Below, in pieces: positions 21,424 to 25,603 of a DNA stretch of 64,000 nt; the first letter of the stretch is position 1, and every line of letters begins with the position of its first letter. The notes under the pieces were generated by a model. The model did no database searches and was not told where the DNA came from. It was given only the letters and a program-made list of their open reading frames with translations. The position numbers and the translations under genes are program-made. This DNA is from Epilithonimonas sp. JDS (lineage in GTDB: Bacteria; Bacteroidota; Bacteroidia; Flavobacteriales; Weeksellaceae), in the NCBI RefSeq assembly GCF_021261315.1, contig NZ_JAJSAX010000006.1, positions 1-64,000 of the forward strand. The letters run 5' to 3'.

Positions 21424-21804
21424 GTGAAAAAATGGATTTCCATATTGCTGCTTTCTTTATATTTGGTTTCAACAACTGAGCTCAACCAGTTTTTGAAGCT
21501 GCCGGTGCTTATTGAGCATTACAACGAGCACCACAAGCTGAATCCGGAAATGACGATACTTACATTTTTCAAACTACATTACGATCATCCGGCAAAGGAC
21601 GCTGATTACAAAACGGACATAAAGCTTCCGTTTATCATGCACTCCACAATTTCTCTTGTTTTTATCCTTGCCTCCAATTTTAATTTTGAGATGACAGCTA
21701 GTCATTACAAAGTTTTTAAGAACCATACATTTTCTGCTTTTGATGAAGATTTTTTTATCAAAGGGTATTTACATTCCATTTGGCAGCCACCGAGAAAGGC
21801 CTGA
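21424..21804 (+). CDS. Small signal-peptide protein of a metal-type locus (unknown function, GTG start)
   Basis: 126 residues from a GTG; no in-frame ATG is available before residue 43. N-terminal hydrophobic segment (about 4-20), then a His-rich stretch (IEHYNEHHKLNP, KLHYDHPAKDADYKTD), a second hydrophobic segment (about 78-90) and a tail LHSIWQPPRKA. Small proteins of this shape and PP-containing tail are remembered from Bacteroidota metal efflux or uptake loci; that link is family memory, not a domain hit. It heads the six-gene ApbE/DUF4266/DUF3570 cluster, 111 bases before the thioredoxin gene. Confidence 0.65.
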   Translation: MKKWISILLLSLYLVSTTELNQFLKLPVLIEHYNEHHKLNPEMTILTFFKLHYDHPAKDADYKTDIKLPFIMHSTISLVFILASNFNFEMTASHYKVFKNHTFSAFDEDFFIKGYLHSIWQPPRKA

Positions 21805-21859
21805 TTTATGGGGTCTGATTTAGTCAAAATTTCAGAAACTAACATCGATAATTTGAGAT

Positions 21860-21882
21860 CTGAATATTTTTAAAATATTCAG
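21860..21882. promoter_or_regulatory. Perfect 23-base palindrome in front of the thioredoxin-ApbE genes
   Basis: CTGAATATTTT, one central T, AAAATATTCAG. It lies 33 bases before the ATG at 21916. The symmetry fits an operator for a dimeric regulator; an attenuating hairpin is the alternative. It is not followed by a T run, so it is not a standard terminator. Confidence 0.5.
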
Positions 21883-21915
21883 CATTAACTGGTTCTACAC
21901 TTCAACTTAAACATA

Positions 21916-22356
21916 ATGAAAACAATATTCGCAGCAGGACTCCTGGTTCTGTTATCCGTATTTGCAGCTGCGCAGACAAGATTTGAAACAGCAAAGAAAA
22001 ATGCGTCCGAAAAAAATGAATTGATATTGCTCAATTTTTCCGGCTCCGACTGGTGTATTCCGTGTATCAAGCTACATAGAAATATTATCGAGACAGATAT
22101 ATTTAAACAATTATCGACTGATCATATTTTGGAGTATCTCAATGCAGATTTCCCAAGAAGCAAGAAAAATCAACCTGCCGCAGATGTTCAGAAAGAAAAT
22201 GCAGCTTTGGCTGATCAATACAATCCGAAAGGTATTTTTCCATACACGGTTTTACTGGATTCTGGTGGCAAAATTCTGAAAACCTGGGAAGGTCTTCCAT
22301 TGGAGAATGCAGTTGCTTTCACTAATGAGATCAGAAGTTTTTATCAAAAAAACTAA
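21916..22356 (+). CDS. Periplasmic thioredoxin-family protein
   Basis: 146 residues with a cleavable signal peptide (to AAAQ, about residue 20) and a thioredoxin fold with redox motif WCIPC (Cys47, Cys50). The cis-proline region is GIFPYTVLLD. Similar stand-alone periplasmic thioredoxins keep secreted cysteines reduced. The next gene, apbE, starts 4 bases after the stop. The Cys-rich tail of the DUF4266 protein two genes on is a plausible client; this is inference. Confidence 0.88.
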   Translation: MKTIFAAGLLVLLSVFAAAQTRFETAKKNASEKNELILLNFSGSDWCIPCIKLHRNIIETDIFKQLSTDHILEYLNADFPRSKKNQPAADVQKENAALADQYNPKGIFPYTVLLDSGGKILKTWEGLPLENAVAFTNEIRSFYQKN

Positions 22357-22360
22357 AGTG

Positions 22361-23287
22361 ATGCTAAAGGAATTTCGCAACGCCCAAAAACTAATGGGGA
22401 ATATCTTCGAAATCACGGTTGTTGCTGACAATGAAGCAATTGCTCTTGAGAATATTGAAGCCGCAGTTTCGGAAATCAGAAGGATCGAAAATCTGCTCAC
22501 AACTTACAGCGGCAACAGTCAGACAAATTTGATTAATGAAAATGCGGGAATTCAATCCGTAGAGGTGGATGCAGAGGTATTTCAGCTGATCGAAAGGTGT
22601 CTCAGGATCAGCAATATTACCGATGGTTATTTCGATATTTCCTACGGCGGAATCGATAAATCTTTTTGGAATTTTGACCGTGAAATGAAGCAGCTTCCCA
22701 ATCCTGAATTGGTAAAAGAACATCTGAAACTTATCAATTACAAAAACATTCTTTTGGATCCGGAAAATCAAACCGTTTTTTTGAAACAGAAAGGAATGCG
22801 AATCGGTTTTGGTGGGATTGGGAAGGGCTACGCTGCAGAGATGGCAAAAAAAATTCTTCAGCAAAGAGGTGTTGTTTCGGGCGTTGTAAACGCTTCGGGT
22901 GATCTCACAACCTGGGGATCGCAGGCCGACGGAAAACCTTGGACCATCGGAATTGCGGATCCGGACAATGCAGCTCTTCCTTTCTCTTATATGAGCATTA
23001 CCAACACCTCTGTTGCCACTTCCGGCAATTATGAAAAGTTTGTAATGATAGCCGGGAAGAAATATTCACACACCATCAATCCAAAAACAGGAATGCCGGT
23101 TTCAGGAATCAAAAGCGTAACGATAATTTGTCCGAACGCAGAAGTTGCGGATGCAATGGCAACACCTGTCACCATTATGGGAATTGATACGGCAATCAGT
23201 CTCGTAAACCAGATCAACCATTTGGAATGTATTATTATCGATGATGATAATCATATTCATTCTTCCAAAAACATCAATTTCAAGTAA
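22361..23287 (+). CDS. FAD:protein FMN transferase (ApbE)
   Basis: Transfers FMN from FAD to a Ser/Thr of a target protein, Mg2+-dependent. 308 residues. Motifs: FGGIGKGYAAEMAKK (flavin site), NASGDLTTWGSQ, KYSHTINPKTGMPVSG, and the C-terminal metal site VADAMATPVTIMG. The ATG at 22361 is used because it follows the thioredoxin stop by 4 bases; a longer frame from 22307 lies inside that gene. No signal peptide or lipobox is visible, unlike most Gram-negative ApbE proteins, so it may act in the cytosol. No classic NqrC- or FMN-bind-type substrate gene is present nearby. Confidence 0.92.
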   Translation: MLKEFRNAQKLMGNIFEITVVADNEAIALENIEAAVSEIRRIENLLTTYSGNSQTNLINENAGIQSVEVDAEVFQLIERCLRISNITDGYFDISYGGIDKSFWNFDREMKQLPNPELVKEHLKLINYKNILLDPENQTVFLKQKGMRIGFGGIGKGYAAEMAKKILQQRGVVSGVVNASGDLTTWGSQADGKPWTIGIADPDNAALPFSYMSITNTSVATSGNYEKFVMIAGKKYSHTINPKTGMPVSGIKSVTIICPNAEVADAMATPVTIMGIDTAISLVNQINHLECIIIDDDNHIHSSKNINFK

Positions 23288-23333
23288 TGTCCTGGAGAGT
23301 CTTTGACATTAAAAAACAAGTAAAAAAATCCAA

Positions 23334-23564
23334 ATGAAAAATATATTAATAAAAGTGCTGATTGGCATTTCTGCCTTTCTTGGACTTTCATCAGCAAAAT
23401 CCTGCTCTACCGTTAAGGAATACGAAAAAATCAAACTGAACGATTCAGAAATGATGCTAGGCAATCGGCCAATTGAAAAAACAGAACTCAGTTTCCAGTC
23501 TTACCGCGAGGGCTCATCCGGCGCCAATGCGGGCAAAGTAGGCGGTGGCTGCGGATGCAATTAG
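23334..23564 (+). CDS. DUF4266 small Cys-tailed secreted protein
   Basis: 76 residues. Hydrophobic signal segment (about 3-20) and Cys24 in AKSC, which could be a lipobox with an unusual Lys at -2 or a residue just after signal cleavage. The C-terminus is Gly-rich: REGSSGANAG followed by the conserved end GGGCGCN. Two C-terminal cysteines could bind a metal or form a disulfide. The SSGAN stretch resembles ApbE acceptor sites (S/T-G-A-S/T), with Asn at the last place. Encoded between apbE and a DUF3570 barrel, an arrangement remembered from other bacteria. Function unknown. Confidence 0.85.
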   Translation: MKNILIKVLIGISAFLGLSSAKSCSTVKEYEKIKLNDSEMMLGNRPIEKTELSFQSYREGSSGANAGKVGGGCGCN

Positions 23565-23597
23565 ATTAATAATTACTAAAACATAGAATCAATTATT

Positions 23598-24773
23598 ATG
23601 AAAAAAGTAATTATAAGCATCATCGCCCTTTTTGGATTCATCAATGCTAAGTCTCAGGAAAACAGCGTTGTTCCATCACCTAAAAAATTAAGTCTGGATG
23701 AGATCAATCTTGTCTCAAGCTACTACAAACAGGACGGAAACAATTCTGCGGTTACGGGCGGCATCGGTTCGGAAAAGCTCACAGATATTTCCAATGCAAT
23801 AGATGTGGTCTTGGTGAACTATGACAAAAAATTAAGAAAGAATAAATATACTTTGGATGTCGGGATAGACCATTATACGTCTGCCTCGTCGGATATGATT
23901 GATCTTAAAGCCAATTCTTCGGCATCCCATGCAGACACGAGGATCTATCCTTCCTTAGGATGGAGCCGTGAGAACGAAACCAAAGGCAGTACAATAATGG
24001 CGGGCATTTCCTTTTCCGCTGAATACGATTATCAATCAATTGGAGCCAATATAGGAATTGCACAAAAAACGCCCAACAAAATGGGAGAATTCACGGCCAA
24101 GTTTCAGGCTTTTATGGATCAGGTAAAATTAATTGCTCCCGTAGAGCTTAGAACTGCAGGCGGCGAAAACAGTGGGACGAGTGGTAGAAATACCTATGCA
24201 CTTTCACTGGCTTATTCTCAGATCATTAATCAGAATTTTCAATTGGAATTGATGACCGATGCTGTTCAGCAGACTGGATATTTGAGTTTGCCCTTCCACC
24301 GGGTTTATTTTACGGATGGATCTGTGCATCAGGAAGCTTTGCCGGATAAGCGATTTAAAATACCTTTAGGATTGAGAGCCAATTACTTCTTTGGAGATCA
24401 GATCATCGTGAGGGCTTATTACCGTTATTATACCGATGATTGGGGACTTAGATCCAGTACAGTCAGTCTAGAAACGCCCGTGAAGATCTCACCTTTTGTT
24501 TCGCTAAGTCCTTTTTACAGATATTATTCTCAAACTGGTGCCAAATATTTTTCACCCTACCAGCAGCATACGAGTTTCGATGATTTTTATACGAGCAATT
24601 ATGACCTTTCAAAATTCAACAGCAGCTTTTATGGAGCGGGCATTCGCATCAACCCTAAAAATGGAATTTTCGGAGTAGAAAGACTCAGTATGCTGGAGCT
24701 CAGATATGGACATTACACCAAATCTATCGGGATGAAATCAGATATTATATCATTGAATCTAAGGTTCAAATAA
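23598..24773 (+). CDS. DUF3570 predicted outer-membrane beta-barrel
   Basis: 391 residues with a signal peptide (about 1-18, ending NAKSQ) and an alternating amphipathic strand pattern throughout, closing with a terminal strand IISLNLRFK as expected for a barrel. Blocks seen: LSSYYKQDGNNSAVTGGIG near the N-terminus, YALSLAYSQIINQNFQLEL, and YRYYTDDWGLRS. DUF3570 proteins travel with DUF4266 and ApbE; their role is unknown. A pore or an assembly platform for the DUF4266 lipoprotein are options. Confidence 0.85.
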   Translation: MKKVIISIIALFGFINAKSQENSVVPSPKKLSLDEINLVSSYYKQDGNNSAVTGGIGSEKLTDISNAIDVVLVNYDKKLRKNKYTLDVGIDHYTSASSDMIDLKANSSASHADTRIYPSLGWSRENETKGSTIMAGISFSAEYDYQSIGANIGIAQKTPNKMGEFTAKFQAFMDQVKLIAPVELRTAGGENSGTSGRNTYALSLAYSQIINQNFQLELMTDAVQQTGYLSLPFHRVYFTDGSVHQEALPDKRFKIPLGLRANYFFGDQIIVRAYYRYYTDDWGLRSSTVSLETPVKISPFVSLSPFYRYYSQTGAKYFSPYQQHTSFDDFYTSNYDLSKFNSSFYGAGIRINPKNGIFGVERLSMLELRYGHYTKSIGMKSDIISLNLRFK

Positions 24774-24790
24774 TTTTTTAAAATTTTAAA

Positions 24791-25486
24791 ATGATGAACG
24801 ATCAATTAGAAAAACATTATGTCATTCGAGTAGGCTGGCTTCGGGCTTCGGTTTTGGGAGCTAATGACGGTTTGCTGTCCACCACCAGTATCGTAATCGG
24901 TGTAGCGGCTGCAGACCCAAGCCGCAATGCGATTATTCTGGCAGCACTTGCCGGGATGATTGCCGGCGCAATGTCTATGGCTGCGGGAGAATACGTGTCC
25001 GTCAGCTCACAGGCTGATACGGAAACCTCAGATCTGGAGCGGGAAAAAAGGGAACTTGCGGAAATACCGGAAATTGAACTGCAGGAACTTGCCAAGATCT
25101 ATGAAAAAAGAGGTGTAAGCAAAGAAACTGCTTTGCAGGTTGCAACAGAACTCACTGCGCACGATGCTTTGGCAGCGCACGCTCACGACGAGCTGGGCAT
25201 CAACGAGATCACTCAGGCAAAACCGTTTCTGGCATCTGTAGCATCATTTTTTTCTTTTTTGGCTGGCGCATTGCTGCCGATGATTTTGGCAATAGTGGCT
25301 CCGGAAAAAGAAATGGTGTATTATCAATATGGATTTTCAATTATATTCCTGATGATTTTGGGCGCTATCTCTGCAAAAATTGGAGGTTCCAGTATCAAAA
25401 ACTCTGTCTTGAGAATCTGTTTCTGGGGTACTGTCGCAATGGTTATCACAGCTTTGGTAGGCCATTTCTTTGGATCAGTCAATTAA
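24791..25486 (+). CDS. VIT1/CCC1-family Fe2+/Mn2+ transporter
   Basis: 231 residues with five membrane helices: near 30-50, 52-75, 145-165, 172-195 and 205-228. Family motifs LGANDGLLSTTSIVIGVAA and AGAMSMAAGEYVSVSSQ, and a cytoplasmic charged segment (about 80-130, rich in Glu) that acts as the metal-binding domain in plant VIT1. In bacteria such proteins probably export or store Fe or Mn. It lies 17 bases behind the DUF3570 gene, which links a metal to this cluster. Confidence 0.9.
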   Translation: MMNDQLEKHYVIRVGWLRASVLGANDGLLSTTSIVIGVAAADPSRNAIILAALAGMIAGAMSMAAGEYVSVSSQADTETSDLEREKRELAEIPEIELQELAKIYEKRGVSKETALQVATELTAHDALAAHAHDELGINEITQAKPFLASVASFFSFLAGALLPMILAIVAPEKEMVYYQYGFSIIFLMILGAISAKIGGSSIKNSVLRICFWGTVAMVITALVGHFFGSVN

Positions 25487-25569
25487 GAAAAATTGGATAA
25501 TTGTCAATTATTAAAAGCTTTGAATTTTAATTTAATTAATAAATCTCATCGCCGGACTTCAAAAGAGTT

Positions 25570-25603
25570 AAAATCCTGAATTTCTAATTCAGGATTTTGC
25601 TTT
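25570..25603. terminator. Bidirectional terminator closing the ApbE/DUF3570/VIT1 cluster
   Basis: A 13-bp perfect stem AAAATCCTGAATT/AATTCAGGATTTT with a 3-base loop, between convergent genes. Confidence 0.88.

Follow-up and report, generated by a model that had tools for sequence, protein, structure and literature searches.

The closest described relatives of the six plus-strand genes at 21424-25486 of a 64,000-nucleotide stretch of Epilithonimonas sp. JDS DNA (contig NZ_JAJSAX010000006.1; the whole stretch is called the window) are envelope systems in which the transferase ApbE attaches flavin mononucleotide (FMN) to an exported protein. According to the passages covered of Meheust et al. 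(2021, eLife, PMC8238504), gene clusters with DsbD typically hold ApbE together with DUF3570 (in 227 of them), DUF4266 (in 221) and a thioredoxin of family PF13899 (in 183). A further 316 clusters have no DsbD nearby, and VIT1 is present in 25 clusters. The DUF3570 protein of C. luteolum was flavinylated at two [S/T]GA[S/T] sites by its cognate ApbE upon co-expression in E. coli; electron transfer and iron assimilation were suggested for the cluster, the function of which was called uncertain (PMC8238504). Beyond that paper we found no literature naming DUF4266 or DUF3570, in a search outside of which most subscription journals lie, and the main text of a 2024 follow-up, as far as covered, does not name DUF3570 (PMC11334425).

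On balance we consider the core of the present locus, trx-apbE-DUF4266-DUF3570, to be a variant of this published DUF3570 flavin-based electron-transfer system. The original prediction had described an uncharacterised redox and metal module of undescribed purpose. Its observation is confirmed, in that the coordinates, gaps and domains of the six genes check out (Pfam names five; the head gene has no match), and its interpretation is partly supported. The cluster type, the flavinylation of DUF3570 and the suggested roles had already been published, so that the locus is not uncharacterised; the purpose was undescribed only insofar as the passages covered of PMC8238504 leave the function uncertain. 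The core comprises the following features:

21916-22356, plus strand: exported thioredoxin-like protein with WCIPC (PF13899, 3e-7)
22361-23287, plus strand: ApbE, flavin adenine dinucleotide (FAD):protein FMN transferase, with an LMGN motif and without a signal peptide (PF02424, 1e-79)
23334-23564, plus strand: DUF4266, small lipoprotein-like protein of 76 aa with C-terminal GGGCGCN (PF14086, 3e-17)
23550-23558, plus strand: codons of the CGC tail of DUF4266 (residues 73-75)
23598-24773, plus strand: DUF3570, predicted outer-membrane barrel and likely ApbE substrate (PF12094, 5e-31, covering only profile positions 114-377 of 427)
23877-23888, plus strand: putative flavinylation site 1, TSAS in DHYTSAS, acceptor Ser97
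23916-23927, plus strand: putative flavinylation site 2, SSAS, acceptor Ser110

The best start for apbE is the ATG at 22361; the mechanically chosen first ATG, at 22307, would overlap the thioredoxin gene. Given this start, the gaps of 4, 46, 33 and 17 nt from the thioredoxin gene onward, the last leading to a VIT1 gene, are exact.

Conservation of the core

Gene neighbourhoods were surveyed in 130 unique loci chosen by DUF4266, made up of 55 loci from a set of genomes (that of the window included) and 80 named loci, 135 in all, less five duplicates. Since the named loci are the best 80 of 374 related ones, close relatives are over-represented among them. All 130 loci have DUF3570 on the same strand at no more than 2 kb from DUF4266; ApbE is present in 118, thioredoxin in 116 and VIT1 in 27, and the four core genes occur together in 108. 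The clustering is not due to chance, and the recurrence of DUF4266, DUF3570 and ApbE elsewhere, which the original prediction put forward, is supported.

Whole genomes give the same picture. In a panel of 59 genomes, one of them the window's own, DUF4266 and DUF3570 are confined to an identical set of 21, all of which have ApbE (43 of 59 overall). Among the 23 panel genomes that belong to the genus, ApbE, DUF4266 and DUF3570 share exactly the same 15 (p 2e-6, ignoring kinship). DUF4266 was found in 54 of 198 genomes drawn from the phylum and in one of 14 control genomes.

The sole DsbD found in the window's own genome lies outside the cluster, on another contig (C12, the window being on C22). 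With a proxy for DsbD-like genes, namely a match of at least 450 aa to the thioredoxin model within 6 kb, an adjacent gene was recorded at nine of the 130 loci: eight of the 12 belonging to one family (coded f30) and one of the 118 others. DsbD is thus rarely adjacent to the core and VIT1 more often so, an observation which is new here.

DUF3570 as the likely substrate of ApbE

The motif D-x-x-[ST]-[GSA]-A-[ST] was found in 110 of 129 DUF3570 proteins versus four of 547 background open reading frames (ORFs; taken stop to stop at these 135 loci, at least 300 aa long). It was absent from all 132 DUF4266, 118 ApbE, 133 thioredoxin, 31 VIT1 and 31 head ORFs. Because flavinylation of DUF3570 is published, and the motif is in DUF3570 and not in DUF4266, the barrel is very probably the ApbE substrate. 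The original prediction had instead made the Cys-tailed DUF4266 the flavinylated product and the barrel a device for placing it; on the motif counts DUF4266 is rejected as ApbE substrate, and the barrel is the likely flavoprotein. The genome encodes a single ApbE, that of the window. The statement that no standard ApbE target is present stands genome-wide for FMN_bind, NQR2_RnfD_RnfE (NqrB/RnfD) and DUF2271, PepSY not having been searched, but it does not take in the barrel of the cluster, which is among the targets already described.

Site 1 reads [ST][GSA]AS in 125 of the 129 barrels, ASAS in three and otherwise in one (L094, perhaps misaligned, with TGAT a few residues further on), Ala-Ser being retained in 128. 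Gly at the aligned place is confined to the 12 f30 loci and absent from the 117 other proteins, in which, as a new feature, its place is taken by Ser or Ala, one locus being unclear. Site 2 is of the Ser type in 73 barrels and of the Gly type in 38, 29 of these outside f30. Ala96 and Ser97 are invariant in 67 aligned barrels, within a loop which is modelled with low confidence and is otherwise variable.

An AlphaFold model of the window's DUF3570 (predicted local distance difference test [pLDDT] 86.7, predicted template modelling score [pTM] 0.80) gives a barrel of 16 strands, counted from the strand list, with Ser97 and Ser110 both in loop 2. A 16-strand barrel with both acceptor serines in one loop is a new prediction; the even strand number is that expected of an outer-membrane beta-barrel, as which the fold is predicted, and the loop would presumably be extracellular. 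The structures matching the model (E. coli BamA, the 4y25 polysaccharide secretin, PelBC and BcsC, solved or modelled barrels of 9-12% identity) resemble it in fold alone, and no common function is implied. A sequence search of the PDB with the barrel profile gave a single match at E 0.26, which is no relative.

In L067 the DUF3570 gene is broken up into two ORFs, and L180 has a damaged DUF3570 in addition to its first one. A decayed second copy of the module (L194:4215-5513, genome G003) consists of a 181-aa DUF3570 fragment beside VIT1, apart from the full module of that genome.

ApbE without a signal peptide

A hydropathy threshold, and no dedicated predictor, served to assess the presence of signal peptides. 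The N-terminus is hydrophobic in 17 of 116 ApbE proteins scored and not hydrophobic in 99, of which 88 fall in one LMGN clade that includes the window, ten in f30, and one is L083. The 88-row clade has a Shimodaira-Hasegawa-like approximate likelihood ratio (SH-aLRT) support of 99 in a quick tree with long branches, that of L083 above all. The ApbE of the window has no hydrophobic segment above threshold ahead of LMGN, and several clade members carry an in-frame stop zero to two codons before the start, so that a missed start cannot conceal a signal peptide in them. The lack of a signal peptide in ApbE throughout this clade, as judged by hydropathy, is a new observation.

The ApbE of the window matched 13 distinct sequences of solved FMN transferases (best 1e-40) and has in common with them the stretches around GGIGKGYA, TSGNYE and INPKTG, which we take to be catalytic. 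In E. coli Ftp an aromatic residue, Tyr60, stacks on the flavin (PMC4767422, passages covered).

Since ApbE is without a signal peptide while the barrel, like thioredoxin and DUF4266, has by eye a signal-like N-terminus, attachment of FMN probably precedes export. For C. luteolum, ApbE and DUF3570 were cloned in a way called "similar" to one in which signal peptides were removed, and most of the DUF3570 was in the cell pellet (PMC8238504, passages covered); flavinylation without export therefore seems possible. Passage of a modified chain is consistent with an open SecYEG lumen of up to 2.4 nm, reported with substrates bearing rigid organic tails (PMC6028853, passages covered).

A rule by which the signal-less LMGN ApbE co-varies with [ST]SAS was considered and rejected: SAS is likewise present at site 1 where the neighbouring ApbE bears a signal peptide and has LMGS or MMGT, and the tree yields only one supported independent contrast.

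Proposed mechanism

We propose that ApbE attaches FMN to Ser97, and probably to Ser110 as well, of the DUF3570 precursor. With a signal-less ApbE the precursor would most likely be modified in the cytoplasm, while still unfolded and not yet exported by Sec. The precursor would then fold as the predicted 16-strand outer-membrane barrel, and from the strand order loop 2 should carry both flavins, either at the outer mouth of the barrel or inside its lumen. After the scheme in PMC8238504 (passages covered), electrons may pass from an inner-membrane donor, for example the unlinked DsbD, to thioredoxin, to the CGC tail of DUF4266 and on to the flavins. The acceptor, judging from the neighbouring genes, would probably be ferric iron or another metal, handled by VIT1 and its neighbours.

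DUF4266 has a C[GA]C tail in all 130 unique loci, WCxxC is present in all 116 thioredoxins assigned to them, and the CXC motif of DUF4266 has been proposed to undergo redox cycling (PMC8238504, passages covered). It is plausible that thioredoxin reduces the CGC tail. A fold model of DUF4266 reached a pLDDT of 61 and a pTM of 0.25, with the tail below 50, values too low to be informative.

The explanation is based upon co-occurrence, motifs, hydropathy and the lack of other substrates among those tested, together with a predicted fold; the place of flavinylation, the electron path and the acceptor we infer. The electron path and the metal role are tentative, standing somewhat short of an even chance. 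If both FMN sites are on the outer face of the barrel, Flavobacteria, Chitinophagaceae and their relatives would have a means by which Gram-negative cells export electrons in the absence of multiheme cytochromes. If a signal-less ApbE serves an exported substrate, FMN would be attached covalently while the protein is still inside the cell, where FAD is made, and its presence on a surface loop would thereby be accounted for.

VIT1, the head gene and other features of the locus

The remaining features are:

21424-21804, plus strand: head ORF, GTG start, small secreted His-rich protein (no Pfam or NCBIfam match at E 0.1)
21860-21882, plus strand: perfect inverted repeat of 23 nt (RNA hairpin) between the head and thioredoxin genes
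24791-25486, plus strand: VIT1-family Fe/Mn transporter (PF01988, 4e-66, above cut-off)
25569-25599, plus strand: terminator-like hairpin 3' of VIT1, bidirectional (statistically weak, the region total being 4 versus 3.5 expected in shuffles)

That a redox module lies near metal genes, as the original prediction had it, is supported. VIT1 is present in all 15 genomes of the genus with the module (in 12 of them no further than 3 kb from the core) versus two of eight without (p 3e-4), and outside the genus in four of six with and four of 30 without. Its position varies between the 5' and the 3' side of the core, yet with a single exception it shares the strand of the core, and this speaks for a functional connection. 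The module is probably linked to iron or other metals. A search for literature joining the VIT family, thioredoxin, ApbE and Flavobacteria returned nothing relevant.

VIT1 is split into two ORFs in the Flavobacterium-type loci L061 (= record L130) and L165. In L202 (8346-9440), L203, L204 and L205 it is a 365-aa protein with an extra N-terminal segment, which in the one tested gave a sub-threshold rubrerythrin match, a kind of domain that membrane-bound ferritins also have.

The head gene is found on the same strand within 4.5 kb in 28 of the 130 loci. Its family has no Pfam or NCBIfam match and occurs both beside the module and beside RND-like efflux operons; a second copy in the window's genome (G000:C3:31942-32316) stands, by eye, beside such an operon. 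Genes of the CusB/HlyD type (Pfam on one) and for RND pumps and P-type ATPases (by eye) recur within 7 kb, each kind at between 10 and 16 of the 135 loci.

A gap of 111 nt containing the hairpin separates the head gene from the thioredoxin gene, so that co-transcription of the head gene with the rest is not established. The hairpin folds with -9.4 kcal/mol (z -2.3; five of 200 shuffles fold equally well). By eye, inverted repeats are seen at the matching place in three near relatives, L068, L069 and L070, none of which were listed by an automated search with spacers of up to 6, and they differ in sequence; the element may be structural and not an operator of fixed sequence. A sigma-70 promoter scan gave 11 hits versus 12.2 expected, and the Bacteroidetes -7 motif was present upstream of the thioredoxin gene in 10 of 115 cases versus 10.1 in shuffles, which is no signal.

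In seven of 130 loci (L079, L080, L085, L087, L089, L163 and L173; Pfam tested in two) a gene for a Rieske-domain protein immediately precedes the core and has its orientation. A PAP2-family gene directly follows DUF3570, often ahead of VIT1, in L110 (9456-10226; = record L069), L057, L064, L068, L074, L111, L112, L118, L126, L133 and L147.

Cytochrome b561

Cytochrome b561 genes occur near the core in ten of 130 loci, six on the same strand and four on the opposite one, several of these rows being close kin. The link is only a lead, the count including no background rate per genome. Six cytochromes tested matched PF01292 (b561), five of them with sub-cut-off matches to DUF4405; none is near the window.

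In five of 148 genomes, from two genera of the window's family, a b561 protein (PF01292 in three tested) has a long C-terminal tail. These five (L193:5201-8896 in genome G033, L202, L203, L204 and L205) lie near VIT1, with ApbE nearby in four and the full core in three; L193 retains ApbE and VIT1 and is missing DUF3570 and DUF4266, and L203 has no ApbE in view. The tails contain DGTSSAS, DGTSLAS, DAASSAS or DGLSNAS. Noticed after the fact, the pattern D-x-x-[ST]-x-A-[ST] occurs in fewer than 1% of shuffled tails; only two of five fit the form with [GSA], and three of the rows hardly differ from one another. Hydropathy of one tailed protein gave four segments above threshold, and a fifth, weaker first helix would place the tail in the periplasm. 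The tailed b561 could be a second ApbE substrate and inner-membrane electron donor. No such protein was found in the window genome at E 1e-10.

Taken at its boldest, the locus would encode a porin-flavin conduit, a heme-free counterpart of porin-cytochrome conduits: a barrel flavinylated in the cytoplasm and bearing two FMNs in an outward loop, with the CGC lipoprotein in or under its lumen as relay, to which some relatives would add the tailed b561 (D-x-x-S-x-A-S) as second ApbE substrate and inner-membrane donor. We regard this as speculative and rather unlikely.

Alternative explanations

Several points weigh against a flavin-based electron-transfer system linked to metal. VIT1 is near so few of the loci that metal handling may be a local add-on, and proteins of its family are able to move metal out of the cytosol, an activity as compatible with detoxification as with assimilation. 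With the models used, ApbE was unseen within 4 kb in 12 of 130 loci and thioredoxin in 14, where at least one locus, L140, ends at a contig end. The Asp-led motif is missing from 19 of the 129 barrels and site 2 is unrecognisable in 18 (15 of them among the 117 outside f30). Both sites of the window (TSAS and SSAS) depart from strict [ST]GA[ST] and satisfy only the relaxed form with Ser for Gly, for which reason we file the system as a variant. Replacement of the motif Gly by Ala lowered flavinylation in another protein, and the passages covered of the review in question do not deal with Ser (PMC12052999). Electrophysiology puts the SecYEG pore at about 0.4 nm (PMC6028853, passages covered). 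In the published passages covered, flavin, electron flow, localisation and metal phenotype extend at most to the C. luteolum member.

The alternative that survives best is that the module is an accessory to metal efflux or detoxification, setting the redox state of thiols or metals that VIT1 and RND or P-type pumps in the vicinity would export, while electrons would not be passed to the outside of the cell. The recurring pump genes, the head-family copy beside an RND-like operon and the VIT1 proteins with an extra N-terminal segment all speak for it; yet VIT1 is near only the 27 loci and none of the 12 of f30, while the flavin core is nearly constant, and we consider it unlikely.

Alternatively, the [ST]SAS sites may be decayed, so that the Bacteroidota barrel is no longer flavinylated and serves as a porin through which a redox-active or metal ligand passes. 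The lack of Gly at site 1 outside f30 and the barrels without a recognisable site 2 would fit such decay. Against this, Ala-Ser has been kept at site 1 in an otherwise variable loop, site 2 is still Gly-type in the 29 proteins mentioned, and ApbE is retained beside the barrel in most loci, which makes decay improbable.

Slightly less probable again is that the signal-less ApbE acts in the cytosol upon another, cytosolic protein, its link to the barrel being incidental. Cytosolic ApbEs with cytosolic targets exist, as for Klebsiella fumarate reductase (PMC12052999, passages covered), and ApbE persists near VIT1 in L193 without DUF3570 or DUF4266; in the genus, however, ApbE is confined to exactly those genomes which have the module, and the genome has no FMN_bind protein, cytosolic proteins with the motif not having been searched genome-wide. 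Least likely of all is DUF4266 as the flavinylated or metal-binding product, placed by the barrel, since the next-door ApbE, its conserved C[GA]C tail and an SSGAN resembling SGA[ST] are outweighed by the lack of Ser or Thr at the acceptor place of SSGAN, by the complete absence of the motif from DUF4266 ORFs and by DUF3570 being the demonstrated substrate in C. luteolum (PMC8238504, passages covered); the CGC tail may nevertheless bind metal.

Comparison with known systems

Typical periplasmic ApbE lipoproteins have an N-terminal signal peptide, unlike that of the window as judged by hydropathy. The Klebsiella pneumoniae ApbE (PMC12052999, passages covered) shares this lack of a signal peptide, and differs in that its target is a soluble fumarate reductase, whereas the likely target here is a signal-bearing outer-membrane barrel. 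The membrane cytochromes PepSY, MsrQ and DUF4405 of Huang et al. (2024, PMC11334425, passages covered) are, like the b561 proteins, b-type, encoded beside ApbE and thought to feed electrons to flavinylated proteins; those tested here belong to PF01292 instead, away from the window.

The nearest relative is the "DsbD system" (PMC8238504, passages covered), with which the locus shares the four core families and a DUF3570 substrate with two sites; VIT1 is present in some of its clusters and DsbD missing in many. The window differs in that its ApbE has no signal peptide, the sites read [ST]SAS and not [ST]GAS, DsbD lies outside the cluster and a head gene is present. To that system the present analysis would add a predicted barrel with a presumably extracellular flavin-bearing loop, the terms "barrel" and "extracellular loop" not being used in the main text of PMC8238504.

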